Positions 1 to 60,697 of a stretch of 61,602 bases of DNA are shown here, one piece after another (position 1 is the stretch's first letter; every line of letters starts with the position of its first letter). The stretch comes from a virus. The stretch lies in IMG/VR virus record IMGVR_UViG_3300027791_000021, positions 1 to 61,602 of that record; one strand, given 5' to 3'. Position numbers and translations under genes: made by a program. The notes beneath the pieces were generated by a model that did no database searches, was not told the origin of the DNA, and saw nothing but the letters and a program-made list of their open reading frames with translations.

Positions 1-3000
1 ATAGCAGCTAACTCAATTGGAACAGTAGCAATATCAGCAAATAGTATTACAGCAGCACAATTAACAGCAGACGCAGTAGGAACATTTACAGTAACTGCAA
101 ATAGTATCACAGCAGTAGAATTAGCTGCTAACGCAGTAGGCAGTGCTCAAATATTAGCAAACTCAATTGCTTCTGCAGAAATATCAGCTAACTCAATAGG
201 CAGCGCAGAAATAGCCGCTAACTCAGTAAACGGAACAATACTACTAGGAAACTCAGTAGGCTCTACTCAGATAGCAATTAATTCTGTAAATGGTATTATA
301 ATTCAAAATGGAGCAGTAGATACAGACCAGGTAGCAGGAAATGCTATAAGAACAGCTAAAATAGCGGCAAACCAAATAGTAAATGCAAGTGTAGCTAGTA
401 ATGCTATCAATGTAGATAGTATAGCTGCTAACTCTATAGAAAATGCACAATTAAAATCAAATTCAGTAACCGCTGCAATAATTATAGCAAATGCAATAGG
501 AGCTTCAGAAATATCAGCAAACTCAGTAAATGCAGTTATTATAGCTGCTAACTCTATTGAATCAAATCAACTAAAAGCAAACTCTGTAAATGCAATTGTT
601 ATAGCTGCTAACTCTATTAATAACAACCAAATAGCAATTAACTCTGTAAATAGTGTTGTTATTCAAAATAATGGGGTAACTGGAGATAATATATCAGCTA
701 ACTCAATTACCGCAGCAAAAATTGTAGCAAACAGTATAACAAACGCAGAAATAAGCGCGACTGGAGCTATAGACGTAGCAAAAATAAGTATTGGAACAGG
801 CTCTATAGGTATAGCAAAAATAGCTATTGGGACTGGAGATATTGATGTAGCAAAAATAGCTATTGGTACCGGATCAATTGACATAGCAAAAATAGCTATT
901 GGTACTGGAGATATTGATATAGCAAAAATAGCTATTGGGACTGGAGATATTGATATAGCAAAAATAGCTGTTGGGACTGGAGATATTGACTATGCAAAAA
1001 TAGCTGTAAGTAATGGCTCTATTAATACAGCAGTACTAGCCGCAAACGCAATTACAAACGCAAAAATATCTTCAACAGACAATATGACAATCACACTGAC
1101 AGATGGTTCAGCAGGTGGTTGGAATGTAAATGCAGCAGACTTTTCTAGTACAAACTCAAGTGGGGGCGGTAATGCAGCATACGCAACAGCAGGTATAAAA
1201 TTAGGGGCGGCAGGATATATTTCAGCAAAGAACTTCTACATTGACACAGCAGGTAACGCTAAATTTAAAGGTGCTCTAGAAGGTGCAACAGGTACTTTCT
1301 CAGGAAGTATATCAGTAACCGCTTTTAATAGTGGATATACAGGTTCAAGCGCGGCAACAGCTACAGCAGCTGTAGCAGCTAACGCAGCAGCAGCAGCGTC
1401 AACAGCTAGTGATGCCTATGGTCAAGCTAATACTGCTACATCGAATGCATCTGATGCTTATGGTCAAGCTAATACTGCTACATCGAATGCATCTGCTGCT
1501 CATGGTCAAGCTAATACTGCTACATCGAATGCAGCTGCTGCTCATAGTACAGCAAATTCAAAAGTTACTCATGCTTCAGTAAACACATCATCAACTATTG
1601 TAGGTGGTGGTGTAGGTGGATGGGGTATAACAACGTATCACTTAGCAGGTGGTGCACAAGCAAGTTCCTCAACTAGAGATTTTGCAATAGGAACATCAGG
1701 CTCAGGAAATGCAACTTTCTTAGCAAATGGTGGTATTGTAATGGGGTCAGATGGTTTTGTTTCCGCAAAACAATTCTATATCGATACATCAGGAAACGCC
1801 AAATTCAAAGGAACACTAGAAGGTGATGATGTTACTGTAAATGGTCAATTAACTTTACCTTCCTCTGGTGCTAATGTAGCCGGTAGTACAGTAGGTAGCT
1901 GGTCTACCAATACTATGGATAACAAACATATAGTAAGTGTAGGTACTGGAGCAGGATTTTATCAAGGATTTGTAAGATTGACTGGTGGAACAAACCATGT
2001 TAAAACTATTAGTATACAAGCAAGAACAGGTAGTTCCACCGCAAGTGAAGGAACACTAATTTATGAAACTCCAAGAATTGACTACTATACAGCAGGAAAT
2101 GCAACATCAGGTAGATTATACTCTAGTGCTCAAACAGCTAATATGCCTATTGCATTTACATATACAGGCTCAGGCAATGTTTCCATGTTTGTAAGAGCTC
2201 AAGCAGATACAGGACCAGATACAGTAGGTTCAGCGGAAGCAAGATTTATTAAATTCGGAACAACAGACCCATTATTCAGTTTTGCTAACCAAACAGGTGT
2301 AGCAGTAAGTACCGCATTTTATTCTAACACACAAGTAGTTGGAGGATTTGCAGGCACTAAAACAGCAAGTATAACTAATACTTCATATACAAGATATAAA
2401 ATTGATGGAGGAAGTTTTGGAACAGCAAACTCAAATATAGCAAACGGAAGTTACATTAATGTAGAAATTACATCAGCAAGTACTAATGCAACTACAAGAT
2501 CAAGCACAATAACTATTGGAGAATCTTCCGCAGGATTTGAGGTTACAACAACATTAGGAGGCGGAGGCGGAGGCGGAGGCGGAGGTTGTTTCGTAGAAGG
2601 AACTCCTGTCGTAATGGCCGATGGTTCGCTAAAAGCAATAGAAACAGTCACTGCAGGAGAGAGTGTAAAATCATTTAGTCACTCTAGTTTATCTCTTGAA
2701 GAAGATGCATGGATAACTTGGACAACACCAGAAATTGGTACAGGTACTTTTGGAACTTCTACAGTAGAAACAGTTACAGATGCTCATGCACATGACAATT
2801 ACTATTGGATTAATTACAACTTGAAAGTAACAGGCGAACATCCAATGTTAGCATTTAAAGATGCAGTTTTCAAATTCGTAAGAGCTGAAGATCTAGCAGT
2901 AGGAGATCACCTAGTATTAGAGGATGGAAGTAGAGAAGAAATATTTGCAATGCCTAACGTACGAGTAGCCTGTCTAACACATAATATGGACGTAGAAGAT

Positions 3001-3081
3001 CAAGATACTTATGTTGTTAAGGGCGGTAATGGAAATGGATATATAGCACATAACGTTATACTAGATGAGGAGAAACCATAA
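1..3081 (+). CDS. Tail fibre/tip protein with decapeptide repeats and C-terminal Hint domain (5' partial)
   Basis: The reading frame is open from the first base of the window, so the true start lies upstream. The visible 1026 residues begin with about 250 residues of decapeptide repeats of the type AANSIGSAEI. A 12-residue repeat (IAKIAIGTGDID-like) follows, seven copies at 775-1026. Next come two copies of a block containing FYIDT(A/S)GNAKFKG, a pattern seen in C-terminal parts of phage J-like tail proteins, and an Ala/Ser repeat at 1408-1533. After ten consecutive glycines, the last 165 residues form a Hint domain: it opens with CFVEGTPV at 2587 and ends with the His-Asn pair of YIAHN. Hint domains are self-processing intein/hedgehog-type folds. 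Val follows the Asn, so normal protein splicing is unlikely; cleavage or cross-linking is more plausible. The role is inferred as host recognition at the tail tip. Confidence 0.8.
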   Translation: MAANSIGTVAISANSITAAQLTADAVGTFTVTANSITAVELAANAVGSAQILANSIASAEISANSIGSAEIAANSVNGTILLGNSVGSTQIAINSVNGIIIQNGAVDTDQVAGNAIRTAKIAANQIVNASVASNAINVDSIAANSIENAQLKSNSVTAAIIIANAIGASEISANSVNAVIIAANSIESNQLKANSVNAIVIAANSINNNQIAINSVNSVVIQNNGVTGDNISANSITAAKIVANSITNAEISATGAIDVAKISIGTGSIGIAKIAIGTGDIDVAKIAIGTGSIDIAKIAIGTGDIDIAKIAIGTGDIDIAKIAVGTGDIDYAKIAVSNGSINTAVLAANAITNAKISSTDNMTITLTDGSAGGWNVNAADFSSTNSSGGGNAAYATAGIKLGAAGYISAKNFYIDTAGNAKFKGALEGATGTFSGSISVTAFNSGYTGSSAATATAAVAANAAAAASTASDAYGQANTATSNASDAYGQANTATSNASAAHGQANTATSNAAAAHSTANSKVTHASVNTSSTIVGGGVGGWGITTYHLAGGAQASSSTRDFAIGTSGSGNATFLANGGIVMGSDGFVSAKQFYIDTSGNAKFKGTLEGDDVTVNGQLTLPSSGANVAGSTVGSWSTNTMDNKHIVSVGTGAGFYQGFVRLTGGTNHVKTISIQARTGSSTASEGTLIYETPRIDYYTAGNATSGRLYSSAQTANMPIAFTYTGSGNVSMFVRAQADTGPDTVGSAEARFIKFGTTDPLFSFANQTGVAVSTAFYSNTQVVGGFAGTKTASITNTSYTRYKIDGGSFGTANSNIANGSYINVEITSASTNATTRSSTITIGESSAGFEVTTTLGGGGGGGGGGCFVEGTPVVMADGSLKAIETVTAGESVKSFSHSSLSLEEDAWITWTTPEIGTGTFGTSTVETVTDAHAHDNYYWINYNLKVTGEHPMLAFKDAVFKFVRAEDLAVGDHLVLEDGSREEIFAMPNVRVACLTHNMDVEDQDTYVVKGGNGNGYIAHNVILDEEKP
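775..1026 (+). repeat. 36-bp tandem repeat, seven copies, in frame
   Basis: Seven contiguous 36-base units start at 775, 811, 847, 883, 919, 955 and 991. Each encodes 12 residues of the form (I/V/Y)AKIA(I/V)GTGDID. The fourth and fifth copies are nearly identical in DNA, which suggests recent expansion by slippage or unequal recombination. The unit length keeps the frame, so copy number can vary without breaking the tail protein. Confidence 0.85.
1408..1533 (+). repeat. 42-bp tandem repeat, three copies, in frame
   Basis: Three 42-base units at 1408, 1450 and 1492 encode SDAYGQANTATSNA and close variants. They are almost identical at DNA level. The Ala-rich, heptad-compatible composition suggests a helical or coiled-coil spacer in the tail protein. 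Confidence 0.85.
2557..2586 (+). repeat. Poly-glycine (GGAGGC)n microsatellite before the Hint domain
   Basis: Thirty bases alternate GGA and GGC and encode ten glycines directly before the Hint domain's first cysteine. It is the most GC-rich spot in an AT-rich gene and probably acts as a flexible linker. A hexanucleotide repeat like this is expected to vary in length between isolates. Confidence 0.8.
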
Positions 3082-3083
3082 TA

Positions 3084-3555: not shown

Positions 3556-3595
3556 AAAAATAGTTCTTGACAGCACCCCATATTTTTGATATAAT
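3556..3595 (+). promoter_or_regulatory. Consensus sigma70-type promoter (P1) for the tail-fibre operon
   Basis: TTGACA lies at 3567-3572 and TATAAT at 3590-3595, exactly 17 bp apart. The -35 box is preceded by the phage-specific block AAAAATAGTTC at 3556-3566. TGA before TATAAT gives an extended -10. The first gene starts 22 bases after the -10 and has a good ribosome site (TAGGAG), so this promoter yields a normal short leader. Confidence 0.9.
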
Positions 3596-3617: not shown

Positions 3618-3956
3618 ATGGCAGCAGGAAATTATGACATAGTCATTGATCAAGGTGCTGACTTTTCAATTGAATTAGTCATAGCGCAAAACGGCAACCC
3701 AGTTAATCTAGGTAGTCATTCTGCGTCTGCACAACTGAGACCAACACCCACATCTTCTACTCTTACAGCAACCTTTACTTGTACAGTTACAAATGCCTCA
3801 CAAGGCAAATTAACAATGAATTTAGGTTACGCACTCACACGAAATATAGCGTCAGGTAAATATTATTATGATTTAGAATTATTTAATTCTAGTGCTAATA
3901 GTATTACTAGACTTATTCAAGGTGTAGCGAGAGTTACAGCAGAAGTTACAAGATAA
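3618..3956 (+). CDS. Small beta-rich virion protein (Ig-like/BppU-N-like)
   Basis: The 112-residue protein has the pattern YDIVIDQGADF at its N-terminus and a long beta-rich body. I recognise this from cyanophage and other marine-phage structural proteins that resemble the BppU N-terminal or Ig-like domain of baseplate proteins. It is the first gene after promoter P1 and has a TAGGAG ribosome site. Its stop codon overlaps the next start in a TAATG junction, so the two are translationally coupled. It is probably a fibre-attachment or adaptor protein. Confidence 0.6.
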   Translation: MAAGNYDIVIDQGADFSIELVIAQNGNPVNLGSHSASAQLRPTPTSSTLTATFTCTVTNASQGKLTMNLGYALTRNIASGKYYYDLELFNSSANSITRLIQGVARVTAEVTR

Positions 3957-21482: not shown

Positions 21483-21909
21483 TTGTAAACTTTAACTCCT
21501 GTGTTTCTAAAAATTGTTCGGCAAAGGTGACATAGCACCCCAACCAGTTTATGTACATATGTTTTTTGTAACATGGCTTTCTTGTCGTTGCCACGTACCA
21601 TTGTGAATGATTCTCCTTAAAAATGAGGAGAGGTTCTTGGTTCATCTCTGTTGCCTGTCTGCACAGCTTAGACCACCAACCCACAAAGGTGTTACTCTTT
21701 TGAGTAAAAATTTTATGATTAAATGCCATATCTTTATAGAATTTAACCTCTATTGTAAAAAGATTAACTTTATGTTCTACCATTAAGTCTCCTTTTATCT
21801 TGCCGGAACCAGAGCCAGGAGTCTGTATAAACTCCTCGCCTATGATTCTTTTTAGCATTTCTGCTACACGTATTTCTGCATCATGACCTTTTCTTCTAGA
21901 ATTAACCAT
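21421..21909 (-). CDS. Hjc-like Holliday junction resolvase / PD-(D/E)XK nuclease
   Basis: The 162-residue protein begins RKGHDAEIRVAEMLKR, then TPGSGSGKIKGDLMV and EVKFYK. This is the E...D...ExK arrangement of Hjc-type PD-(D/E)XK nucleases. It probably resolves branched replication and recombination intermediates before packaging. It sits between glutaredoxin and the flap exonuclease in the replication operon and overlaps both. Confidence 0.65.
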   Translation of the reverse strand: MVNSRRKGHDAEIRVAEMLKRIIGEEFIQTPGSGSGKIKGDLMVEHKVNLFTIEVKFYKDMAFNHKIFTQKSNTFVGWWSKLCRQATEMNQEPLLIFKENHSQWYVATTRKPCYKKHMYINWLGCYVTFAEQFLETQELKFTNGDKIYEPWRVDPEWELINS

Positions 21910-22132
21910 CTAATAAAGCCTTGAGTTCCATGAATCCGCCTATCTTTTCTCCGTCTACAATAATCTGAGGAAACGTTCTTGCAGTAGGAAATAGTTCCCT
22001 AACTTCTGTTGGTTTAAAACCATCTCCCATCATTTTATATATTGTTTCGTCTACCTTTGGGTGAGACTCCGCTAATTTTTTTGCTTGTACACAATATGTA
22101 CAATTTGGTATACTGTAAATTACTACTTGCAT
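21902..22132 (-). CDS. Glutaredoxin
   Basis: The 76-residue protein has the active site CTYC (Cys11/Cys14), the cis-Pro segment RTFPQI and the GG turn near the end, the classic glutaredoxin set. It likely reduces the C-terminal cysteines of phage NrdA, encoded downstream in the same operon. It is the first gene after promoter P2 and has the ribosome site AAAGGA. Confidence 0.92.
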   Translation of the reverse strand: MQVVIYSIPNCTYCVQAKKLAESHPKVDETIYKMMGDGFKPTEVRELFPTARTFPQIIVDGEKIGGFMELKALLDG

Positions 22133-22154: not shown

Positions 22155-22190
22155 ATTATAACAAATATTTAATTCCTTGTCAAGATTTAA
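22155..22190 (-). promoter_or_regulatory. Promoter P2 for the Grx-nuclease-nrdAB operon
   Basis: On the minus strand TTGACA is at 22183-22178 and TATAAT at 22160-22155, with 17 bp between them. TGT before TATAAT gives an extended -10. The upstream block is poorly conserved (AATC instead of AGTTC), so this is the most divergent member of the set. The predicted leader is about 16 bases and contains AAAGGA. Confidence 0.8.
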
Positions 22191-26072: not shown

Positions 26073-26459
26073 TTATATTGTCTCCTCAAACATAAAGTGA
26101 ATCCTGCCATCCTTTACATCGAGCAGTCTGTTTTTAGTTATAATTTCTTCTGACACTGGTAGCATCAGAAGATCTAGTGTGGAGTCTTTGGTTTGCCTAT
26201 ACTCATAGTAACTGCGGAACGATGCGACTCCTGCATATTCCACTACTTCTTTATCTGAGTAGCTGCGACCGACATTCAATAATTTCTCAGGATTCAAGAG
26301 AAACGATTGACCGCCATAGTAGTGTTCATAAAATTTAAACACTCGGTCATTATAGTTTTTTGGTGTGAGTTTAAAAGTAATAATTCGCAGGATTGTGATA
26401 GTATCTAACACATTTCCTTTGCTTACTTTAAGTATTTCATTCCAATTAAATAATAACAT
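26073..26459 (-). CDS. Conserved phage protein of unknown function
   Basis: The 128-residue protein starts MLLFNWNEILKVSKGN and contains YYGGQSFLLNPEKLL and SFRSYYEYRQT. I recognise this pattern from a conserved cyanophage hypothetical family whose N-terminus also begins with FxWNxILK, so the start is probably correct. The ATG follows the -10 box of promoter P3 with no gap. A transcript from P3 would therefore begin inside the gene, and its full-length product must come from read-through of the upstream operon. Confidence 0.65.
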   Translation of the reverse strand: MLLFNWNEILKVSKGNVLDTITILRIITFKLTPKNYNDRVFKFYEHYYGGQSFLLNPEKLLNVGRSYSDKEVVEYAGVASFRSYYEYRQTKDSTLDLLMLPVSEEIITKNRLLDVKDGRIHFMFEETI

Positions 26460-26499
26460 ATTATATCAAATTTATAAGATTCTGTCAAGAACTATTTTT
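26460..26499 (-). promoter_or_regulatory. Promoter P3 (SSB/recombination operon)
   Basis: On the minus strand TTGACA is at 26488-26483 and TATAAT at 26465-26460 (17 bp, TGA extended -10). The upstream block AAAAATAGTTC is intact, and its TAG at 26494-26492 is the stop codon of the preceding glycosyltransferase gene. The ATG at 26459 directly abuts the -10 box. Confidence 0.88.
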
Positions 26500-38010: not shown

Positions 38011-38384
38011 TTTTCCTCTTTGTTCATGTAATTTGCTAGTTTTGTATCGCATTGTTTGTAGTTTCTATAGAAACCTTCTATCTCTTGCAACTCTATTTGT
38101 AATGTGTGCCACCAAGACTTATCCATTATAGTTTTCTCAGCAATTGCTTTCTTCTTATGTTGAATTAGTACTTTTATAGCTAATGGGTTCCATGTCTTTC
38201 CACCTTTCTCCCACAGGGAAGGTTTATAATAAGTAAGAGCATATTTTTGTTTTGCTTTTCTTATAGCGACAATACTTCTGCGAAGGTGTTCCGCACAAAA
38301 TTCTATGTCCCAATCATTCGCGACACATATTTCGTAATCGTATTCTGTCCAGCGTTCGTTAGCACTGGTTATATTATTCACCAT
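38007..38384 (-). CDS. Small HTH protein
   Basis: The 125-residue protein has WTEYDYEICVANDWDIEFCAEHLRRSIVAIRKAKQKY, a Myb/SANT or GcrA-like helix-turn-helix pattern shared by several small proteins in this genome. A Trp-rich segment (PSLWEKGGKTW) and a charged C-terminus follow. It lies between primase and polymerase with 4-base and 11-base overlaps. DNA binding is inferred. Confidence 0.55.
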   Translation of the reverse strand: MVNNITSANERWTEYDYEICVANDWDIEFCAEHLRRSIVAIRKAKQKYALTYYKPSLWEKGGKTWNPLAIKVLIQHKKKAIAEKTIMDKSWWHTLQIELQEIEGFYRNYKQCDTKLANYMNKEEK

Positions 38385-39222
38385 ATAATTGTTTCTTTAA
38401 TCTTTCTATCTGGTCACGGTTTAAGTTACCAGGGTCTGTGTTTAGGGGTAAAGTTACTACCCTTGCTGACATTTCTAAGGACTCGGCTAAACCTTTGGCT
38501 GCTTCTGCAGCTCTATTACCTGCCTCATCTCCATCAAACATGATGTCGACTCCTTGTACTCCCTGCATTTTTAGTAAGGATAATTTTACCCAGTTGACTT
38601 GTTGTGTGCCAAAACAGCAAACAGTATTCTTAAGACCTTTGTCCCATAAGTTTAAAGCATCGAATATGCCTTCTACTAGAATAACTCTGTTCTGTATAAG
38701 CTTAACCTTGGCAGGGCAAAAGGGCATTTCCGCCCCGCCAGGATAGATATAGTACTTTGATTGTCCCATACTAGCTTCACTGATTAATCTTCCGATTAAG
38801 GCAACAGTTTTTCCTGTGATGTTACGGATTGGAAAGATAATTCTGCCTTCAAACTTAGGAGTGTTCCAAGTAAACGCATCCCATATACCTAGAGTCTGCT
38901 CTGATATATTTCTAAGCGGTCCACCTGACCATCTTATTCTCTCTTTAGGTAATTGAATACCTACTGTTTGAGACTTAACTTTCGTTATTGCTTCACGAAT
39001 ACGATGAAGCCTTACTTCCAAAGGGCTAGAAGGGGCTCCATAGTATGTAAACAAATTTCCTTTAAAACCACAGGAAAAACAGTTGAATACTCCTGTCACT
39101 CTATCAATTCTCATTGACGGGTGGGAATCATCATGTTCTGGGTTTAAGCAGAGTACAGTAGCATCCTTACCACTTATTTGATAATTTACTCCTTTCTCTT
39201 GTAAAAGTTCTTCTGCTGTCAT
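38374..39222 (-). CDS. DNA primase (CHC2 zinc finger, TOPRIM)
   Basis: The 282-residue primase has a CHC2 zinc finger (LCLNPEHDDSHPS...NCFSCG) and a TOPRIM domain with VILVEGIFDAL and DIMFDGDEAGNRAA. It has no helicase domain; the DnaB-like helicase is encoded separately at 39930-41300. It is the first gene after promoter P4, with only about four bases of predicted leader and no clear ribosome site. Confidence 0.92.
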   Translation of the reverse strand: MTAEELLQEKGVNYQISGKDATVLCLNPEHDDSHPSMRIDRVTGVFNCFSCGFKGNLFTYYGAPSSPLEVRLHRIREAITKVKSQTVGIQLPKERIRWSGGPLRNISEQTLGIWDAFTWNTPKFEGRIIFPIRNITGKTVALIGRLISEASMGQSKYYIYPGGAEMPFCPAKVKLIQNRVILVEGIFDALNLWDKGLKNTVCCFGTQQVNWVKLSLLKMQGVQGVDIMFDGDEAGNRAAEAAKGLAESLEMSARVVTLPLNTDPGNLNRDQIERLKKQLYGE

Positions 39223-39232
39223 AATTATATAT

Positions 39233-39275
39233 AGTATATCAAATTTTTAACCCGGTGTCAAGAATTATTTTTCGT
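39233..39275 (-). promoter_or_regulatory. Promoter P4 (primase-polymerase operon)
   Basis: On the minus strand TTGACA is at 39261-39256 and TATACT at 39238-39233 (17 bp, TGA extended -10). The upstream block reads AAAAATAATTC, one change from the consensus. The primase ATG begins 11 bases after the -10 box, so the leader would be only about four bases. Confidence 0.85.
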
Positions 39276-42103: not shown

Positions 42104-42856
42104 TTATTCCTCTAATAAATGTTTTAGGTTTGTTATTATTACGACACCGCGTTCTTGCGCCGCCATTGTTTTTGCTGACTCGATTCCTGACTCATTAACC
42201 AAATGAGTACAGTCTTTAGTTAGACTTGATTTTACGATAAATCCATATTGACTAAGCACTTGCTCTGCATGAGCTTTAGTCGGATAACTTTTCAGTCTAC
42301 CACTAATGCATATAACACCCTTGACCTGTTTCTTTTCTAGTATTTTATTTTTCCAGTTGAAAGGCAAGTTGTTGTAGTTATTTGGGTAGTATTCAGTTTC
42401 TAACCAGTTAATTAAATTAGTAGTTGCTTTTGGACCAATACCCGCTTCGGAGCATTTTATCTCGCTTATATCTTCAATATGAGATATAGTATTGCATAGT
42501 TTTTGAGAAGCTGATTGACCAATAAGTGGAATCGAAAATGCCGGTATTAATTTTACTAGCGGAGTTTCTTTAGACTTTTGAATCTCAATATAGAGTTTCT
42601 CTCCTAATTTAACTGAACCTAATCTTGACTGTAAATCTTCTACAGTTAATGAATACAATTCTTCGTAATCTTGGATTTCCAGCTTACTTACAGCTGCAGG
42701 ACCAAGCCCTTTAATTTTTAGACTAGAAGCGAAGTTGACCACTTTCTTATCCCATTGTGAAGGGCATGAGTCGTTTTTACAGAATAACTGGTCATTAACG
42801 AACTCTAACTCACTATCACATGAAGGGCAGTTAGTCGGTGGTATAATTTTTCTCAC
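42104..42856 (-). CDS. NAD-dependent DNA ligase, C-terminal subunit (LigB half)
   Basis: The 250-residue protein has the four-Cys zinc finger (C10, C13, C26, C31) of bacterial LigA, helix-hairpin-helix repeats (KIKGLGPAAVSKL, GIGPKATTNL) and a C-terminal BRCT domain (VKGVICISGRL...TKDCTHLVNES). The adenylation half is a separate gene at 47410-48351. The start codon is GTG with AAAGGA upstream. Both halves have their own promoter. Together they would seal nicks; neither would be sufficient alone. Confidence 0.9.
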   Translation of the reverse strand: MRKIIPPTNCPSCDSELEFVNDQLFCKNDSCPSQWDKKVVNFASSLKIKGLGPAAVSKLEIQDYEELYSLTVEDLQSRLGSVKLGEKLYIEIQKSKETPLVKLIPAFSIPLIGQSASQKLCNTISHIEDISEIKCSEAGIGPKATTNLINWLETEYYPNNYNNLPFNWKNKILEKKQVKGVICISGRLKSYPTKAHAEQVLSQYGFIVKSSLTKDCTHLVNESGIESAKTMAAQERGVVIITNLKHLLEE

Positions 42857-42885: not shown

Positions 42886-42929
42886 ATTATACAAAAAGTT
42901 TGGGCATCTGTCAAGAACTATTTTTATAT
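42886..42929 (-). promoter_or_regulatory. Promoter P5 (ligase C-terminal / helicase operon)
   Basis: On the minus strand TTGACA is at 42914-42909 and TATAAT at 42891-42886 (17 bp), preceded by an intact AAAAATAGTTC block. The leader is about 23 bases and carries AAAGGA before the GTG start. Confidence 0.88.
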
Positions 42930-43069: not shown

Positions 43070-43856
43070 ATATATCCTTTATAATTCTGTCCGCCATTAG
43101 CCTGTTTCCTTCGTGTAACGGATGGTCTCTTGGTCCAAATGGGACTTTTTTTCTGATGCACATGTCATAAAAAGCTTCTTCTTTCATATGCGGTAATAAT
43201 TCTTTGTAGTGTTTTCCATTAAGGGTTTGCTGCTTCCATGTAATGTTAGCACCTTCTTTTTTCTGTTCGTTTAGTGTTCTCCATACGGGTTTTATTTGTC
43301 CATCACTCATATTATAAAATAAGTAAGGAACTTTTTGAAGTTCTAACATATTCTTTACTGCTAGCATATAATTTAAAGTTTCTATTAAATTAGAGGGAGC
43401 GTTCCGGACACTTCTTCCATAATTATTTACTCCTTCCCACTGAGGTCTATTCATGTCTGGGTGATAGTGCATCTCTGAATCGTCGCTTACAGTGAAATCG
43501 TCCATAGCCATTCTATGTCTTGTCCAAGCAGCTTGCCTCCAAGTATTATTAGCACGATTTAAATATTCAAATCTGTTTATATTTGACCAAACTATGATAA
43601 CCATTTTAGGTCTTGCTGCGACAATCTTTACTGGATCGGCTGCCACCTTACCCCAGACTTGATCATTTGCAGTAATTCCTTGGGGATGCATAAAATCATC
43701 TATCATATTCCTAAAAATTCTGTCGTTGCTCCCTCCTACTTTGGAGTGCCTTAACATATCTTGTCCAAAATGATTCGATACTATCCAAGCAAACTGGTCT
43801 TGAACTCTTTCTATTTCCATGCCTTGTACAAAGCTACATCCATTCCAATAAATCAA
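43038..43856 (-). CDS. SGNH hydrolase-like protein
   Basis: The 272-residue protein opens with WNGCSFVQGMEI (catalytic Ser8 in a GCSF block), has KVGGSNDRIFRNM (oxyanion Gly/Asn) and ends with RDHPLHEGNRLMAD, the DxxxH element. These are the blocks of SGNH esterases. The start must be TTG at 43856, because the first ATG would remove the catalytic serine; it overlaps the upstream stop as TTGA. Next to a carbamoyltransferase, it may add or remove acyl groups on a glycan. Confidence 0.65.
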   Translation of the reverse strand: MIYWNGCSFVQGMEIERVQDQFAWIVSNHFGQDMLRHSKVGGSNDRIFRNMIDDFMHPQGITANDQVWGKVAADPVKIVAARPKMVIIVWSNINRFEYLNRANNTWRQAAWTRHRMAMDDFTVSDDSEMHYHPDMNRPQWEGVNNYGRSVRNAPSNLIETLNYMLAVKNMLELQKVPYLFYNMSDGQIKPVWRTLNEQKKEGANITWKQQTLNGKHYKELLPHMKEEAFYDMCIRKKVPFGPRDHPLHEGNRLMADRIIKDIYDKKMDKVFN

Positions 43857-45178
43857 AATACTTTTACTCCATACTTATGCTGAAAGTCTAATGCCTGCTC
43901 CCAAGTGTTAACCATAGGTTCACCTTTAATATTCAAACTGGTGTTTAATAACATAGGTACTTTAGTAATATCATAGTACACCTCTAGTATACGTCGTAGT
44001 GCTGAGGTGCAGTCTTTGCGAACCACTTGTACTCGTGCTGTCCCATCAACATGTGTGACCGAACTATAGTCGTGTTTTGCTTTTGCCACGAATTGCATAT
44101 ACTCATTAGTATACCCTTCAAAATATTCATCTACGTATTCCTCTAATATTGCTGGAGCAAATGGTCTAAATTTCTGTCTGCGTTTAATCGCATTGACTGT
44201 ATCTTTGATATCGAACCTAACATCTCCTAGTAAACTTCTGTTACCAAAAGCACGAGGTCCGAACTCAGCTTTGCCATTAGCTATTCCAACTACTTTATTA
44301 CTTATAATTTCTTTTACTACTTCTACTGGATTTATTTCTTGATCTATATTATGTCCTAAAAAACAATCTTTGAAGTTTATATGCTCTTTTCTGTGAGCAA
44401 GTATACAACCTAATGCACTCCCAGCGTCACCTGGGCTTGGAAATATCCACATATCATCAAACATTGGTCTTATTTTTGAATTTGCCACGCAGTTTAATGC
44501 TACTCCACCTCCATAAACTAATTTTCTTCCGTACTTTCTAGCCTCTAACATTATGTTATGTATCTCATGTTCTAAAAACAACTGAGCTGAAGCCGCTATA
44601 TCTTCAGGAGTTTGCCAAAACCATTTGTTAATACTAATTCCTTTGTGTAGATTCGTATTTATTATATCACCCATATCAATACTAGGAGTGCCATAAGCTG
44701 CCATACCCATTGTAATGTATTCATCTTCGTTTGGTTTTAATCCGATGCGTTTCGTGATAGCACTATAGAATAGACCTAAACTACTAGGGTATCTTTTGCT
44801 CCAGACTTTCTTTCTATCTTTCCAGATAGTTGCTGTATCATACTCACCGATTGCATCTATTACAACGCATACTACATCATCTTTAAAAGGAGCAGTATAA
44901 TATCCTGCTGCCATATGACTCTCATGGTGTCCTACAAATTCATCATACTCATTCCCTTCATGGGGTTTCATATGATGTTGTTCTCGTCTTTCGTTTTTTA
45001 ACTTAATATCTTCATAAAAAACACTAACATCGTGGTCAGTAGTTTTTAAATAGTCAGGTACCCATCGAGTATTCTTTACACGAGTATACCTCTCTGCATG
45101 TGTTGCAAATAAAATTTCATTATTTCTCATGACTGCTACTCCAGCGTCATGAAACCCTTCACTAATCCCTAAATATTT
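43853..45178 (-). CDS. Carbamoyltransferase (NodU/CmcH/TobZ family)
   Basis: The ATG at 45178 starts at the family's usual MKYLGISEGFHDAGVAV, giving 441 residues. It has HHESHMAAGYY (metal-binding His in the Kae1-like domain), VVIDAIGEYDTA, YGGGVALNCVANSK and the YrdC-like C-terminal half with GRAEFGPRAFGNRS-type sequence (KAEFGPRAFGNRSLLGD). These enzymes carbamoylate sugars or antibiotics with carbamoyl phosphate and ATP. In a phage it probably modifies a glycan or nucleotide. The upstream in-frame extension lies inside the GIY-YIG gene and is rejected. Confidence 0.9.
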   Translation of the reverse strand, partial: KYLGISEGFHDAGVAVMRNNEILFATHAERYTRVKNTRWVPDYLKTTDHDVSVFYEDIKLKNERREQHHMKPHEGNEYDEFVGHHESHMAAGYYTAPFKDDVVCVVIDAIGEYDTATIWKDRKKVWSKRYPSSLGLFYSAITKRIGLKPNEDEYITMGMAAYGTPSIDMGDIINTNLHKGISINKWFWQTPEDIAASAQLFLEHEIHNIMLEARKYGRKLVYGGGVALNCVANSKIRPMFDDMWIFPSPGDAGSALGCILAHRKEHINFKDCFLGHNIDQEINPVEVVKEIISNKVVGIANGKAEFGPRAFGNRSLLGDVRFDIKDTVNAIKRRQKFRPFAPAILEEYVDEYFEGYTNEYMQFVAKAKHDYSSVTHVDGTARVQVVRKDCTSALRRILEVYYDITKVPMLLNTSLNIKGEPMVNTWEQALDFQHKYGVKVF

Positions 45179-45545
45179 CATGCTTTTTGGGGAAGTCCTC
45201 CAATATTTTTGAGTCCATGCAGAAACATTCGGTGTGACCACCGAACTTATGTGCTGTTTTATGTCTGTCAATTTCATATTTCTTGTGTAGTTTCTGTTCC
45301 CATCTCCAACAATCGTATATCGTCCCGTTCCAAATTCTCTGTATTCTTATTTCGTAATTGGTAAAGCCACGCCCTCGTCGAACGACGTCTTTGAATGTTG
45401 TTCCTTTTGCGATTCCTACTTTTATTGTTTCTCGTTCCCATGTTACTGTATTCACAAGGACAATTCCGTAGAGCAATCCTGCTTTCTCTTTTTCAAGAGG
45501 ATGGTTATCAAAATAAGTGTGATTATAAATCCCACCAGCACTCAT
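45162..45545 (-). CDS. GIY-YIG-type endonuclease
   Basis: The 127-residue protein has GLLYGIVLVN and ETIKVGIAKG as the GIY/YIG-like strands, an Arg-containing helix (VVRRGRGF), WEQKLHKKY with the metal-binding Glu, and HKFGGHTECF at the end. This is the layout of free-standing GIY-YIG homing-type nucleases. It is embedded between QueC-like copy 2 and the carbamoyltransferase, overlapping both. It may have moved this block as a mobile intronless homing gene. Confidence 0.6.
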   Translation of the reverse strand: MSAGGIYNHTYFDNHPLEKEKAGLLYGIVLVNTVTWERETIKVGIAKGTTFKDVVRRGRGFTNYEIRIQRIWNGTIYDCWRWEQKLHKKYEIDRHKTAHKFGGHTECFCMDSKILEDFPKKHEIFRD

Positions 45546-46956: not shown

Positions 46957-47413
46957 ATACAAAAATCCAATTGGTTCTTCCAGCCGAATCTATATTTGTA
47001 CCAACTTCTTTAAATCCAAAGTCTAAGAAAGGTTGTTTACCTCCCTCATAAGTTATTTCACACATCATTCTGGGACTGCCCCATTGTTTCATACAAAATT
47101 CTTTCCCTTTAGTTAAATCTCTTTTGGTACACCCACCTTTGTAATCAGACCTCCAAGCTTGTCTACGAAAAGCAGGATATCTGTAAGATACTCCGTTATC
47201 TCCATAGAAAGTTTTTCTGTCGCATAGTGCATTTACTCCAACCATAACACCTTTATGATACCAAAGCATCCAATACTGGTGTTTGTCGTACTTATCTTCT
47301 AAGTCCTGGTAACATACTTTGTTACGGACAATAAAACCATCGACTCTTAACTGTAGGGCATCATAAAGCTCATCTACAGTTAAGTAAGTATAGTGTTTTA
47401 TTTTAGAAATCAT
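46937..47413 (-). CDS. ElaA-like GNAT acetyltransferase, copy 2
   Basis: The 158-residue protein has VDELYDALQLRVDGFIV, CYQDLEDKYD and RMMCEITYEGGKQPFLDFGF, and is paralogous to 33940-34461. Homologous blocks appear in the same order, including KTFYGDNG and YPAFRRQAW. It follows the ligase gene with a 4-base overlap, so it is expressed from promoter P6. It probably acylates the product of the linked radical SAM or QueC-like enzymes. Confidence 0.7.
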   Translation of the reverse strand: MISKIKHYTYLTVDELYDALQLRVDGFIVRNKVCYQDLEDKYDKHQYWMLWYHKGVMVGVNALCDRKTFYGDNGVSYRYPAFRRQAWRSDYKGGCTKRDLTKGKEFCMKQWGSPRMMCEITYEGGKQPFLDFGFKEVGTNIDSAGRTNWIFVYEPDTY

Positions 47414-48351
47414 ACTCTTTTTACAATTCTTGGGATTATCTCCCCACTTCTTATTACTTCTACATTACAACCTATTTCTAAGTCAAGAGCTTCAATATAT
47501 GCAATGTTATGCAGTGTAGCTCTTGATATGGTTGCTTCTCCTATCACACAAGGTTCGAGTATAGCGACTGGTGAAACTGCACCTGATTTACCGACATTCC
47601 ATTCAACATCTAATAATCGAGTAACAACTCCTGCTTGCCTAGTTTTTAGAGCAAAGCTACCTCTAGGGTGGTGTGCGGTGTAGCCTAACGATTCAAAATA
47701 TATATTAGAGTCGACTCTTACCACTTTACCGTCCTGAGGGAACTGGCTATAATCACTTTGGGTGACTGTGTTTAGTCCCATACTCGCTAACATACCCATA
47801 TCTCCTATCCAATCTGGACAGATGGCTGGTGAACAGCCGTAGGCTATGAAAGTCAAGTCACGAGACTGAAATTCTTTTGTACTTTTTAAGTTCAATGCAC
47901 CTGCTGCATAATTTCTAGCATTAGGTATTTCCTTTGGAGCTACAATCTCACCTGTAATTTGGGTAAGTTGAGTTCTAAAGATTTTATTTGGAACTATAGT
48001 TTTAATTTTATCAGTAATATCTAGCCCTTCTTTGCCATCGCCACGTGTTAACGCCTGAGATAATACGCCATCTATATAAGTTATAGATACAGCTGCACCG
48101 TCCAGTTTAGGAGTCATAATAGTTGCTTTTGTGGTGTCCCATTTTGGTTCCTCATCTTCTCCGATAAAGACCTTTTGTAATGAATACATTGGGAAAGGGT
48201 GTTTGAATCTTTGTTCTCCTACTTCTACATAGCCTACTTTATTTTGTAGTACAGTGTTTTCTGTAAGTCTGTCGTATACCTCGTCCGGCAATATAGGATT
48301 GCCTTCAGCATACTTCTGATTACAATATTCTAGGTATTCTGTCTTATTCAT
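47410..48351 (-). CDS. NAD-dependent DNA ligase, adenylation subunit (LigA half)
   Basis: The 313-residue protein has the NAD-binding Ia region (YCNQKYAEGNPILPDEVYDRL), the nucleotidyl-lysine motif K82-LDG (TPKLDGAAVSI), GEIVAP, and the OB-fold end (GNVEVIRSGEIIP-type). It stops where bacterial LigA would continue into zinc finger, HhH and BRCT, which are encoded at 42104-42856. Its conserved N-terminus fixes the start at 48351, exactly seven bases after the -10 of promoter P6, so the mRNA should be leaderless. Confidence 0.9.
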   Translation of the reverse strand: MNKTEYLEYCNQKYAEGNPILPDEVYDRLTENTVLQNKVGYVEVGEQRFKHPFPMYSLQKVFIGEDEEPKWDTTKATIMTPKLDGAAVSITYIDGVLSQALTRGDGKEGLDITDKIKTIVPNKIFRTQLTQITGEIVAPKEIPNARNYAAGALNLKSTKEFQSRDLTFIAYGCSPAICPDWIGDMGMLASMGLNTVTQSDYSQFPQDGKVVRVDSNIYFESLGYTAHHPRGSFALKTRQAGVVTRLLDVEWNVGKSGAVSPVAILEPCVIGEATISRATLHNIAYIEALDLEIGCNVEVIRSGEIIPRIVKRV

Positions 48352-48357
48352 ACATAT

Positions 48358-48400
48358 ATTATACAGAAAATTTAAGGATTTGTCAAGTATTATTTTTGTG
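48358..48400 (-). promoter_or_regulatory. Promoter P6 (leaderless; ligase adenylation half and tailoring operon)
   Basis: On the minus strand TTGACA is at 48386-48381 and TATAAT at 48363-48358 (17 bp). The upstream block reads AAAAATAATAC, two changes from consensus. The A of the ATG is seven bases after the last -10 base, the expected transcription start. No ribosome site can precede it. Confidence 0.88.
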
Positions 48401-49082: not shown

Positions 49083-49556
49083 TTAGTCGTTCAGTTCGTT
49101 AATTAACTGTGCGAAATACTGAGCAGCCTTACCAGTAAGCTTACTGATAATTGCAGTGTCTGGTTCTTTACCTGCGTCTGTGATTGCTGAAGCTAAGTCA
49201 TCCTGAGCACCTGCTACAGAGACTCTAGTTCCACCACCAGTTCCGCTAGATTTAGTTCCAGCCGCTGGAGTTTTCTTTACATAAACTCCTGCCTTTGTTA
49301 AAATCATTCTGACTCCATTTGGGCTCTCACCTAATTCATCAGCTACAACTTTAACTATTTCCATACTCGTTTCGGGAGTAGGTTCTTCTGCAGTATACAT
49401 CTCTACTGCCTGAGCTTTCATTTCGTCTGTCCAAGCCATTTTTCTTTTCCTTGTTAATTTAAATTTTAGTTCATATTCGGCAAGAGTCATAGTATTTTTA
49501 TAACCTGGGCACCAACCTGTGGTATCCAGCATTTGTGTATAAAACCTATCGCTCAT
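49083..49556 (-). CDS. WTxExK-type HTH protein, possible transcription regulator
   Basis: The 157-residue protein starts MSDRFYTQML and then has KRKMAWTDEMKAQAVEMYTAEE and ESPNGVRMILTKAGVYVKK, a helix-turn-helix with a recognition helix ending in GVY. A Gly/Ser/Thr linker leads to a second small helical domain (ISKLTGKAAQYFAQLI). I recognise the full-length form, including the N-terminal extension, from cyanophage proteins. It is paralogous to the protein at 61381-61602. It has its own promoter and terminator, which suggests a dedicated regulator. An internal ATG at 49439 is also well placed. Confidence 0.65.
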   Translation of the reverse strand: MSDRFYTQMLDTTGWCPGYKNTMTLAEYELKFKLTRKRKMAWTDEMKAQAVEMYTAEEPTPETSMEIVKVVADELGESPNGVRMILTKAGVYVKKTPAAGTKSSGTGGGTRVSVAGAQDDLASAITDAGKEPDTAIISKLTGKAAQYFAQLINELND

Positions 49557-49580: not shown

Positions 49581-49618
49581 ATTATACTAAAAGTTTAAGC
49601 AAGAGTCAAGAACTAAAT
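49581..49618 (-). promoter_or_regulatory. Promoter P7 (single-gene unit)
   Basis: On the minus strand TTGACT is at 49609-49604 and TATAAT at 49586-49581 (17 bp). The upstream block reads TTTAGTTC. The leader is about 18 bases with AAGGAA before the ATG. Confidence 0.82.
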
Positions 49619-52930: not shown

Positions 52931-53044
52931 TTATTTCCAGCACTTATACTCGCCACATAATCCATCTTCATTTTCTGTAGTTCCACAGTAATGGCATGGT
53001 TTATCTGACTTGGTTGGTTTATGTTTAGTTTCTGTTATTTTCAT
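52931..53044 (-). CDS. 37-residue zinc-ribbon peptide from a leaderless-type promoter
   Basis: The frame from the ATG at 53044 encodes a basic N-terminus, then CHYCGTTENEDGLCGEYKCWK. Four cysteines in two pairs fit a miniature zinc ribbon. The ATG is eight bases after the -10 of promoter P8, and the stop abuts the next start. The strong promoter and precise packing argue it is a real gene. It may bind nucleic acid or a protein partner. Confidence 0.6.
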   Translation of the reverse strand: MKITETKHKPTKSDKPCHYCGTTENEDGLCGEYKCWK

Positions 53045-53051
53045 ATAGTAT

Positions 53052-53090
53052 ATTATACTAAATTTATCAACAGGTGTCAAGAACTATTTT
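53052..53090 (-). promoter_or_regulatory. Promoter P8 (leaderless-type)
   Basis: On the minus strand TTGACA is at 53080-53075 and TATAAT at 53057-53052 (17 bp), preceded by AAAATAGTTC. The TAG of that block (53086-53084) is the stop codon of the upstream holin-like gene. The downstream ATG is eight bases after the -10. Confidence 0.88.
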
Positions 53091-58763: not shown

Positions 58764-58889
58764 CTAAGTCAAAGGTGCGACTGCTAGAAAGACCACTGTG
58801 CTGACTGCTACTAATAGTAACATCTCCACTGCATCTTCTACATCTACCCTGTTTAATTCATCTCGAACTTTAAAAGCTAATGCTTTCAT
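58764..58889 (-). CDS. 41-residue single-pass membrane protein (holin candidate)
   Basis: The frame from the ATG at 58889 overlaps the Hsp20 stop as ATGA and encodes MKALAFKVRDELNRVDVED followed by one helix, VEMLLLVAVSTVVFLAVAPL. It lies directly upstream of the endolysin on the same transcript. A small one-helix membrane protein here could be a pinholin-like holin, but similar small proteins in marine phages have no proven function. Confidence 0.55.
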   Translation of the reverse strand: MKALAFKVRDELNRVDVEDAVEMLLLVAVSTVVFLAVAPLT

Positions 58890-59266
58890 GTTATCTCCAA
58901 TATTTTCCTTTTAGAGTTTGGAGTCCGAGTTAGTTGTATTGTTAATAATCCGTCTTGTAGACCTACATCTGTTACTTGTAAGTCAGGATTAAGAATAAAT
59001 CTTCTCTCAAAGCTTTTTAAACTTAGTCCCTGATGTAGGAATTTCTCCCCTTCATCTAGTTTTGTTGTTTTATTACCCTTGATATGGAGTTCTTCGCCAT
59101 CAGCGATAATCTCCAGTTCTGTTTTATTCCAACCTGGTACAGCAATGTCTATTTTAAAGCCACCACTACTTTCAATTAAGTTATATCTAGGATAAGAACT
59201 CTCCGTATAAGACGGCATAAGCCCATTATCTAATCCAAGCCAAAATTTAGTTAAATCAATACTCAT
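58886..59266 (-). CDS. Small heat-shock protein (Hsp20/IbpA-like)
   Basis: The 126-residue protein has an alpha-crystallin domain with GGFKIDIAVPGWNKTELEIIAD, LHIKGNK and FERRFILNPDLQVTDVGLQDGLL. Phage Hsp20 proteins are known in cyanophages and probably help fold virion proteins. It is preceded by an unusually long, structured leader of about 89 bases with a GGAGG ribosome site, unlike other genes here. Confidence 0.9.
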   Translation of the reverse strand: MSIDLTKFWLGLDNGLMPSYTESSYPRYNLIESSGGFKIDIAVPGWNKTELEIIADGEELHIKGNKTTKLDEGEKFLHQGLSLKSFERRFILNPDLQVTDVGLQDGLLTIQLTRTPNSKRKILEIT

Positions 59267-59361: not shown

Positions 59362-59401
59362 ATTATATCAAAATTTAACCTTAATGTCAAGAACTATTTT
59401 T
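59362..59401 (-). promoter_or_regulatory. Promoter P9 (Hsp20-lysis operon)
   Basis: On the minus strand TTGACA is at 59390-59385 and TATAAT at 59367-59362 (17 bp, TGA extended -10), with an intact AAAAATAGTTC block. The block's TAG (59396-59394) is the stop codon of the upstream small membrane gene. Confidence 0.9.
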
Positions 59402-59540
59402 CGTTGTCAAACTCGATTATACCTTCTGTCTCCAGAAAGTCTATCGTTGACTCTATTCCTAACTGTCTTCCAATGTTATATGAAATGCCGATAAGGCAGA
59501 TTGTGATTATAATGTAGTTTACATCTATATTTTCTATCAT
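59394..59540 (-). CDS. 48-residue single-pass membrane protein
   Basis: From the ATG at 59540 the frame encodes MIENIDVNYIIITICLIGIS, one membrane helix, then GRQLGIESTIDFLETEGIIEFD. The second part resembles small conserved proteins in cyanophages. The ATG lies seven bases after the -10 of promoter P10, so it should be translated from a leaderless mRNA. Its stop codon is supplied by promoter P9. Confidence 0.6.
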   Translation of the reverse strand: MIENIDVNYIIITICLIGISYNIGRQLGIESTIDFLETEGIIEFDNEK

Positions 59541-59546
59541 AGCAAT

Positions 59547-59585
59547 ATTATATCAACTTTCTCAGTATTTGTCAAGAACTATATA
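59547..59585 (-). promoter_or_regulatory. Promoter P10 (leaderless, small membrane gene)
   Basis: On the minus strand TTGACA is at 59575-59570 and TATAAT at 59552-59547 (17 bp, TGA extended -10). The block reads TATAGTTC. The ATG lies seven bases beyond the -10. It is divergent from P11, 36 bases away. Confidence 0.85.
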
Positions 59586-59610: not shown

Positions 59611-59651
59611 AAAAAATAGTTCTTGACAGGAGTTAAAAAATAGTTCATAAT
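59611..59651 (+). promoter_or_regulatory. Promoter P11 (leaderless, methyltransferase)
   Basis: TTGACA is at 59623-59628 and CATAAT at 59646-59651 (17 bp), preceded by AAAAAATAGTTC. A second copy of AAAAAATAGTTC lies within the spacer (59635-59646). The ATG at 59658 is seven bases after the -10. Confidence 0.85.
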
Positions 59652-59657
59652 AACAGT

Positions 59658-60239
59658 ATGAAAACAATATCCGAAGAATACAGACAAGTATTAATACAAA
59701 CACATAAAAAGTATAAAGGCACGTGGGGAAACTCAGGACTAAGACTATGGAGCAACGCCTTTCTAGGAATAATGCGTTTTCAAAAGTTCAATAGAGTACT
59801 AGATTATGGTGCAGGTTGGGGGATGGTCAAAGATGGCTTATCAAAAACACATCCTCATATTGAAGTCATAGAATATGAACCATCTAGAGCAGAAGTGGCA
59901 GCCTCCCCCGAACCTTGTGAAATGGTTATTTGTCATGATGTACTAGAGCATGTTGAACCAGAATACCTAGATAATGTAATAGCAGACTTAAAAAGAGTAA
60001 CTCTGAAGTGGGGGCATTTTTCTGTGTCTACTAAACCTGCTGTAGCAAGACTATCAGATGGGCGAAATGCTCACTTAATAGTAGAAAATTTCGAGTGGTG
60101 GATAATGAAATTAGCTCCGCACTTTTATATTCGACGAGCTAACCATCCCAATAGAAATCGAGTTGCAGGAGAGTTTTGGGTTGAAAGAAAGGATGAGCTT
60201 GACTTAAAAGCTATAGAGCTACAGAAAAATAGTTCTTGA
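59658..60239 (+). CDS. Class I SAM-dependent methyltransferase
   Basis: The 193-residue protein has VLDYGAGWGMVKD (motif I) and VICHDVLEHVEPEYLDNVI (the HxxEH-type element). The target could be a small molecule, glycan, protein or nucleic acid. The ATG is seven bases after the -10 of P11, so translation should be leaderless. Its stop TGA lies within the -35 box of P12. Confidence 0.8.
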   Translation: MKTISEEYRQVLIQTHKKYKGTWGNSGLRLWSNAFLGIMRFQKFNRVLDYGAGWGMVKDGLSKTHPHIEVIEYEPSRAEVAASPEPCEMVICHDVLEHVEPEYLDNVIADLKRVTLKWGHFSVSTKPAVARLSDGRNAHLIVENFEWWIMKLAPHFYIRRANHPNRNRVAGEFWVERKDELDLKAIELQKNSS

Positions 60240-60264
60240 CACGAATAAAAAATTCATTTATAAT
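60226..60264 (+). promoter_or_regulatory. Promoter P12 (leaderless, HTH-bS21 operon)
   Basis: TTGACA is at 60236-60241 and TATAAT at 60259-60264 (17 bp), preceded by AAAAATAGTTC. The last three bases of the upstream gene, TGA, are within the -35. The ATG at 60271 lies seven bases after the -10. Confidence 0.9.
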
Positions 60265-60270
60265 ATACTT

Positions 60271-60459
60271 ATGAAATGGACTGATAACGAAAAACAATTT
60301 TTGAAACGAAACTACAATGATATGTCAACGGAAGACATTGCATCCAAACTGGGTCGCAATCCGTCAAATATCGCCTCACAGATATACTATCTAAGAAAAA
60401 GAGGTTGGACATTCAACTCTAAGAAAGACAAACGAGAGGAAGTAAATGCCGAGCATTGA
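60271..60459 (+). CDS. Small SANT/GcrA-like HTH protein
   Basis: The 62-residue protein has MKWTDNEKQFLKRNYNDMST and EDIASKLGRNPSNIASQIYYLRKRG, a single helix-turn-helix of the WTxxE type seen in other genes of this window. It should be produced from a leaderless transcript. It probably acts as a small transcription factor and is coupled to the bS21 gene, which starts inside it. Confidence 0.75.
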   Translation: MKWTDNEKQFLKRNYNDMSTEDIASKLGRNPSNIASQIYYLRKRGWTFNSKKDKREEVNAEH

Positions 60460-60697
60460 TTGTAAAAATATGCCTGTTGAAAAGGCAATTCGTATCTTCC
60501 GTAGAAAGTGTGATAACGCTGGGATTAAAGAAGAATGTCGAGAAAGACAACATTTTGAGAAACCATCAGCAGTTAAATATGAGCATAGAAAAGCAACTAA
60601 AAGGAAACGTACTAGAGACTTACAAAAGGAGCAAGACCTTTTTGCAACGAGAAAAACATTTAGAACTGCTCCAAAAAAGAAAAGTCGAAGAAGTTAA
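60446..60697 (+). CDS. rpsU: Ribosomal protein bS21 homologue
   Basis: The 83-residue basic protein has VEKAIRIFRRKCDNAGIKEECRERQHFEKPS, the core of bS21 (VxxAxRxFKRxxxxxGIxxExRRRxxxEKPS). It is longer than typical bS21 (about 70 residues) because of a Lys/Arg-rich tail. bS21 sits at the 30S platform near the anti-Shine-Dalgarno end of 16S rRNA and supports initiation. A phage copy could adjust host ribosomes towards phage mRNAs. It has a normal ribosome site (GAGAGGAAG). Confidence 0.9.
   Translation: MPSIDCKNMPVEKAIRIFRRKCDNAGIKEECRERQHFEKPSAVKYEHRKATKRKRTRDLQKEQDLFATRKTFRTAPKKKSRRS

Follow-up and report, generated by a model that had tools for sequence, protein, structure and literature searches.

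Why does a phage that encodes its own ribosomal protein bS21 place the gene behind another gene whose mRNA is predicted to lack a leader? Phage bS21 genes are known, and so are leaderless phage genes; no other ribosomal protein occurs in phages as often as bS21 (PMC9723584). According to the original prediction, the two features belong together, and the phage protein might rewire translation initiation on the ribosome. We addressed this question in a linear viral record from IMG/VR (IMGVR_UViG_3300027791_000021; 61,602 bases), the whole of which is referred to below as the window, and in its relatives.

The bS21 gene and its HTH partner

The identity of the putative ribosomal protein was assessed by profile and structure searches. 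The ORF matched the Pfam family Ribosomal_S21 (PF01165) with 51.6 bits (cut-off 27, E = 7.8e-14) as well as PHROG 21469, and its closest relatives in the PDB were all bS21. An AlphaFold model (pLDDT 87.8) displayed three helices. When this model was submitted to Foldseek, 14 of 14 PDB chains were bS21 or mitochondrial mS21, although the best E-value was only 0.07, as expected for an elongated protein. The ORF is thus a bS21 homologue, as had been proposed from its sequence.

Within the protein, the core and the tail evolve differently. Among 26 relatives, R16, K39 and P40 were invariant and R19, K21 and R32 nearly so, the KP motif being kept. In most informative pairs dN was about a tenth of dS, indicating purifying selection on the core. 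Past residue 55, the tail evolved faster than the core in most comparisons. Lengths ranged from 58 to 86 aa in the clade, compared to 71 aa in E. coli and 88 aa in one bS21 of the PDB. The Lys/Arg-rich tail had been suspected to be over-long and phage-specific; being variable in length and fast-evolving, it is not a conserved phage feature.

The gene in front of bS21 encodes a small HTH protein. All 28 HTH members tested against the D5-like profile PHROG 323 matched it (28/28, best E = 3e-9), the window protein covering only positions 96–139 of 319. The protein also showed weak similarity to Myb and GcrA in the PDB. Its predicted structure is a small helical HTH fold, and a Foldseek search with the model gave no significant match. 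A Trp near the N-terminus is invariant in 28 HTH proteins (residue 3 in the window protein), and the next in-frame Met follows only at residue 18, which indicates that translation indeed begins at the annotated ATG. The peptide RKRGWTFN was invariant among recruited loci and differed in other members, but this invariance is partly an artefact because the peptide served as a search pattern in locus recruitment. As the ATG lies 6 nt past TATAAT, the usual +1 position would fall on its A, and the HTH mRNA is predicted to be leaderless with transcription starting on that nucleotide.

In most loci, the HTH stop and the bS21 start overlap by 14 or 8 nt, a geometry that suits translational coupling. 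A Shine-Dalgarno (SD) core was found before bS21 in 44 of 49 distinct loci. It was strong in 34 of them, so that coupling may not be needed.

The hsp20 gene of the window is divergent from the bS21 operon, and several clade contigs carry divergent promoters of the same type about 240–300 bp apart. This suggests that the neighbourhood of hsp20 and the bS21 operon is conserved.

A promoter class with closely spaced start codons

The promoters in the window follow the layout TTGACA, a 17-nt spacer and TATAAT, and nearly all of them carry TAGTTC or a close variant ahead of the -35 box (AATAGTTC-TTGACA; Table 1). With at most one mismatch allowed, TTGACW-17-TATAAT was found 15 times in the window, compared to 2.5 expected. 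The same pattern with an ATG at +6 was found five times versus 0.09 expected, and neither count was reached in any of 100 shuffles. One of the five +6 matches is a mismatch (ATA) and not leaderless, leaving four real ones. A gene start lies close 3' of 12 of the 15 sites.

Five genes of the window start 6–7 nt past the -10 box, namely those for the HTH protein, the methyltransferase-like protein, the 48-aa ORF, the ligase and the CxxC peptide. Among the remaining promoters, the start lies at 10 nt in one case and at 0 nt in another; all others precede leadered genes with an SD, the leader of hsp20 being long. By this spacing, no more than 5–7 window genes would count as leaderless or almost leaderless. 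An SD core was present in 39 of 84 window genes, based on crude gene calls, versus 13% in control stretches.

Table 1. Promoters and genes of the window discussed in the text; leaderless starts are predicted from promoter spacing.
Feature	Position	Strand	Remarks
Promoter, same type	3567..3595	+	Leadered gene 3618-3956 with SD
Promoter without TAGTTC element	22155..22183	-	Leadered gene 21902-22132 with SD
Promoter, same type	26460..26488	-	Candidate ATG abuts -10; ORF 26073-26459
Promoter, same type (TATACT)	39233..39261	-	Gene 38374-39222, start 10 nt past -10; almost leaderless
Promoter, same type	42886..42914	-	Leadered gene 42104-42856 with SD
NAD-dependent DNA ligase, leaderless	47410..48351	-	
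Ligase promoter	48358..48386	-	
Promoter, same type	49581..49609	-	Leadered gene 49083-49556 with SD
Small CxxC peptide (37 aa), leaderless	52931..53044	-	ATG 7 nt past -10
CxxC peptide promoter	53052..53080	-	
Hsp20	58886..59266	-	SD-led (GGAGG); divergent from bS21 operon
hsp20 promoter, same type	59362..59390	-	Long leader
48-aa ORF, leaderless	59394..59540	-	Family of 36 leaderless loci
Promoter of 48-aa ORF	59547..59575	-	
Promoter, same type (TTGACA-17-CATAAT)	59623..59651	+	
Methyltransferase-like gene (PHROG 24759), leaderless	59658..60239	+	ATG 6 nt past -10
HTH-bS21 promoter	60236..60264	+	Perfect TTGACA-17-TATAAT, AAAAATAGTTC in front
HTH protein (62 aa), D5-like (PHROG 323), leaderless	60271..60459	+	ATG 6 nt past -10
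SD-like GAGAGG of bS21	60434..60439	+	Within HTH coding sequence
Phage bS21 (83 aa)	60446..60697	+	Start overlaps HTH stop by 14 nt

A large clade of uncultivated phages

To place the phage, we compared the window with isolates and metagenomic contigs. A near-identity DNA search with positions 36700–61602 gave no match among phage isolates, and close relatives among isolates were found neither by bS21 nor by HTH search. The DNA polymerase (about 46% identity) and the NAD ligase (about 45%) were nearest to those of T5-like phages (Demerecviridae), which also share the D5-like domain with the clade; we do not claim membership in this family. The window belongs to a sizeable clade of phages, uncultivated and for the most part marine, with their own bS21; the size of this clade is indicated by at least 120 stretches that matched in a scan with the promoter pattern. 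A bS21 alignment search of genome contigs revealed no cellular relative. Host assignment via the bS21 of a relative was discarded as uninformative, since it pointed to Bacillota and scattered MAGs with at most 59% identity and partial coverage. The window also encodes a Nol-like carbamoyltransferase (PHROG 1601; 43853–45277), possibly involved in DNA or surface modification.

Conservation of the operon and of start codon spacing

Recruitment by bS21 homology yielded 27 viral loci. A leaderless HTH gene was located upstream in 27/27, and its promoter was kept in all of them with at most one mismatch in the -35 box. Recruitment by HTH homology, in which neither the promoter nor bS21 was used, yielded 76 viral loci, 51 of them distinct. 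In 75 of the 76, bS21 was found downstream, and the remaining contig stops after 36 nt. A promoter with an in-frame start could be resolved in 46 distinct loci (L250, in which one ATG lies at 0 nt and another at 6 nt, was left out), and the start was located 6–8 nt past the -10 box in 44 of them. In the two exceptions, L251 and L256, the HTH start lies 25–29 nt past the -10 box, in L251 with a clear SD. The L251 locus (1960–3082) encodes a related HTH protein whose gene is SD-led instead of leaderless; a bS21-like gene follows about 700 nt further on. The 6–8 nt spacing and the HTH-bS21 order persisted while HTH identity dropped to about 38–46%.

The ligase gene behaved in the same way. Among 28 distinct promoters obtained by ligase homology, the ATG was located at exactly 6 nt in 28/28, and it is the true start because alignments to T5-like homologues begin at residue 1. 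For both HTH and ligase, the spacing was kept despite differing flanking and spacer sequences.

We then considered the promoter class as a whole, using 239 distinct strict promoters from bS21- and HTH-recruited loci, a minority of which (L149–L191) are bS21 matches in promoter-recruited contigs. For 108 of these, the first ORF of at least 30 codons began at 6–8 nt. When HTH genes were excluded, this spacing was found for 43/177 promoters, compared to 9/626 TATAAT boxes without a -35 box (Fisher p ~5e-22). A spacing of 0 nt, as at the ORF 26073–26459 of the window, occurred at 13/239 clade promoters and 12/626 control sites. Leadered clade promoters were followed by an SD core in 34/41 cases. 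Among the leaderless families are those of the HTH protein, with 80 distinct proteins, the ligase (68), the 48-aa peptide (36) and the CxxC peptides (25); loci that had been recruited through the leaderless pattern contribute to these counts.

All large clade contigs (>40 kb, at least 5 promoters) encode bS21, with one match being weak and below the cut-off. Ligase-bearing contigs that reach the expected place of bS21, about 12 kb upstream of the ligase, carried it in 5/5 cases, and those without bS21 all end before this place. Other contigs without bS21 had one or two chance-like promoter matches or were short fragments. Among contigs long enough to show bS21, we found no clade member with leaderless promoters that lacked it. 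These results support the part of the original prediction that couples phage bS21 to a leaderless HTH gene as well as to leaderless promoters more widely.

Comparison with other phages

Nine clade contigs contained 8–23 strict promoter-ATG matches each in 38–105 kb. In contrast, five T5-like genomes lack bS21 and have hardly any such promoters (0–5 matches each in 112–122 kb); the ligase of Erwinia phage KEY is SD-led. HTVC008M and Kolga are, like the clade, aquatic phages encoding bS21 (PMC6375957, PMC8163748). The bS21 of Kolga is SD-led (TAGGAGG) and preceded by a short ORF as well as a gene for RNA polymerase, and a scan of the Kolga genome revealed no promoter of the clade type. HTVC008M has nine promoter matches, mostly not at 6–8 nt, and none of the clade type in the intergenic stretch before bS21. 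A leaderless HTH partner was seen at neither bS21 locus. A Vibrio jumbo phage with bS21 likewise showed no clade-type promoter. In the jumbo Vibrio phage 2.275.O (MG592671; L324, 103–1101), genes for IF-3, bS21 and an L7/L12/ClpS-like protein lie in a row, possibly forming a translation-initiation cassette.

Leaderless-rich phages therefore have bS21, but phages with bS21 need not be leaderless-rich. Since bS21 and the leaderless promoters are both clade-wide, their coupling is not separable from common descent, and the clade might simply have inherited compact σ70 leaderless promoters and bS21 as independent traits. Such independence would account for the leaderless ligase, CxxC peptide and other genes without an evident tie to bS21, for the bS21 of Kolga and the Vibrio jumbo phage without such promoters (HTVC008M has few), and for L251, where bS21 still follows an SD-led HTH gene. 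By inheritance alone, however, spacing and gene order would be expected to drift, and both persist at the HTH identities given above. We consider independent inheritance a serious but somewhat unlikely explanation.

In lambda, cI is a single leaderless gene of the lysogeny switch, whereas the clade has a class of predicted leaderless genes, one of them tied to a ribosomal protein. As predicted for the clade HTH, cI is a phage DNA-binding regulator whose mRNA has no leader (PMC9031893). The huge phages of Bacteroidetes resemble the clade in the conserved context of bS21 and in the hypothesis of a swap on host ribosomes, but their bS21 is located in a structural gene block (terminase/capsid) and expressed late (PMC9723584). 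The neighbours of the window bS21 are instead the D5-like HTH gene, the methyltransferase-like gene and hsp20, and its promoter is of the σ70 type.

A model for the HTH-bS21 operon

Our preferred reading, to which we assign a probability of roughly 40%, is that of a takeover operon driven by the host polymerase, probably early, in which phage bS21 would replace host bS21 and aid phage mRNAs generally. Host RNA polymerase would read the strong σ70-type promoter, with transcription beginning at the first nucleotide of the HTH start codon, and existing 70S ribosomes could translate the resulting leaderless message at once. Translation of leaderless mRNA by 70S ribosomes has been described (PMC9031893). 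The SD-led second gene, bS21, would be translated by probable coupling to the leaderless HTH gene. Its product could then take the place of host bS21, which is only loosely attached to the 30S subunit, and help initiation on phage mRNAs generally, mainly the SD-led ones, instead of selecting the leaderless ones. Indeed, bS21 is assembled late, loosely bound and exchangeable (PMC9578407), and the bS21 of pelagiphage HTVC008M enters E. coli 70S ribosomes (PMC6375957). Because huge-phage bS21 is late, it is only the promoter type that points to early timing of the clade operon.

With the pelagiphage protein, however, E. coli ribosomes kept only about 5% of their translation (PMC6375957); incorporation may thus poison the ribosome, at least in a foreign host. 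This effect and the fast-evolving basic tail would fit a bS21 that acts off the ribosome or against host translation, e.g., as a basic protein that binds RNA or as a subunit with a dominant-negative effect. Yet phage mRNAs need the same ribosomes and the bS21 core residues are conserved, and we regard such a role as very improbable.

The original prediction went further and proposed that phage bS21 could influence the choice of ribosomes between leaderless or SD-poor phage mRNAs and host mRNAs. In the corresponding model, an altered 30S platform would favour the leaderless phage mRNAs at the expense of SD-led host mRNAs. The conserved association of bS21 and leaderless genes speaks for it. Moreover, bS21 is located near the anti-SD, Flavobacterium ribosomes without bS21 show an altered mRNA choice (PMC9976891), and bS21 paralogues change gene expression in Francisella (PMC9578407). 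Several observations, in contrast, speak against the proposed preference: bS21 itself is SD-led in 44 of the 49 loci, and most phage genes are not leaderless, about half having an SD core. In addition, E. coli 61S ribosomes without bS1 and bS21 reportedly translate leaderless mRNA better (PMC12186496), which argues that a special bS21 is unneeded and speaks against the proposed direction. In Flavobacterium johnsoniae, bS21 controls initiation choice and a strong SD precedes rpsU, just as in the window bS21, but rpsU autoregulation needs the anti-SD pocket of Bacteroidia (PMC9976891). We judged this mechanism unlikely here, since the SD motifs and the E. coli-type TTGACA/TATAAT promoters of the phage point to an SD-using host. 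Selection for leaderless mRNAs by phage bS21 is possible, but as an explanation of the operon we find it quite improbable.

The behaviour of 61S particles suggests a different order of events, in which ribosomes lacking bS21 would first accept the operon through its leaderless start, and the bS21 made by coupling would subsequently bring back SD-led initiation for the other phage genes. Binding of natural mRNAs is said to fail when ribosomes have no bS21 (PMC6375957). The position of bS21 behind a leaderless gene, in overlapping frames, and the SD core in about half of the phage genes would also fit. However, nothing points to a shortage of host bS21 at infection, and the strong SD of bS21 itself in 34 of the 49 loci argues against this scheme, making it improbable. 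More broadly, the view that bS21 and the leaderless genes form one initiation programme, either tuned toward leaderless mRNAs or starting without bS21 and restoring SD use, appears unlikely.

In the literature searched, which consisted mostly of non-subscription papers, we found no description of a clade-wide operon of a leaderless D5-like HTH gene and bS21 accompanied by further leaderless genes. The clade is also a phage group in which σ70-type promoters are predicted to yield leaderless messages for a regulator, a DNA ligase and small peptides alike. For the question of why phages carry bS21, it offers a defined, deeply conserved arrangement. The HTH-bS21 arrangement turns the vague idea of takeover into one open to a direct test, namely whether a bS21 swap changes the use of leaderless versus SD starts. 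How phages take over the start of translation thus becomes testable on a concrete system.
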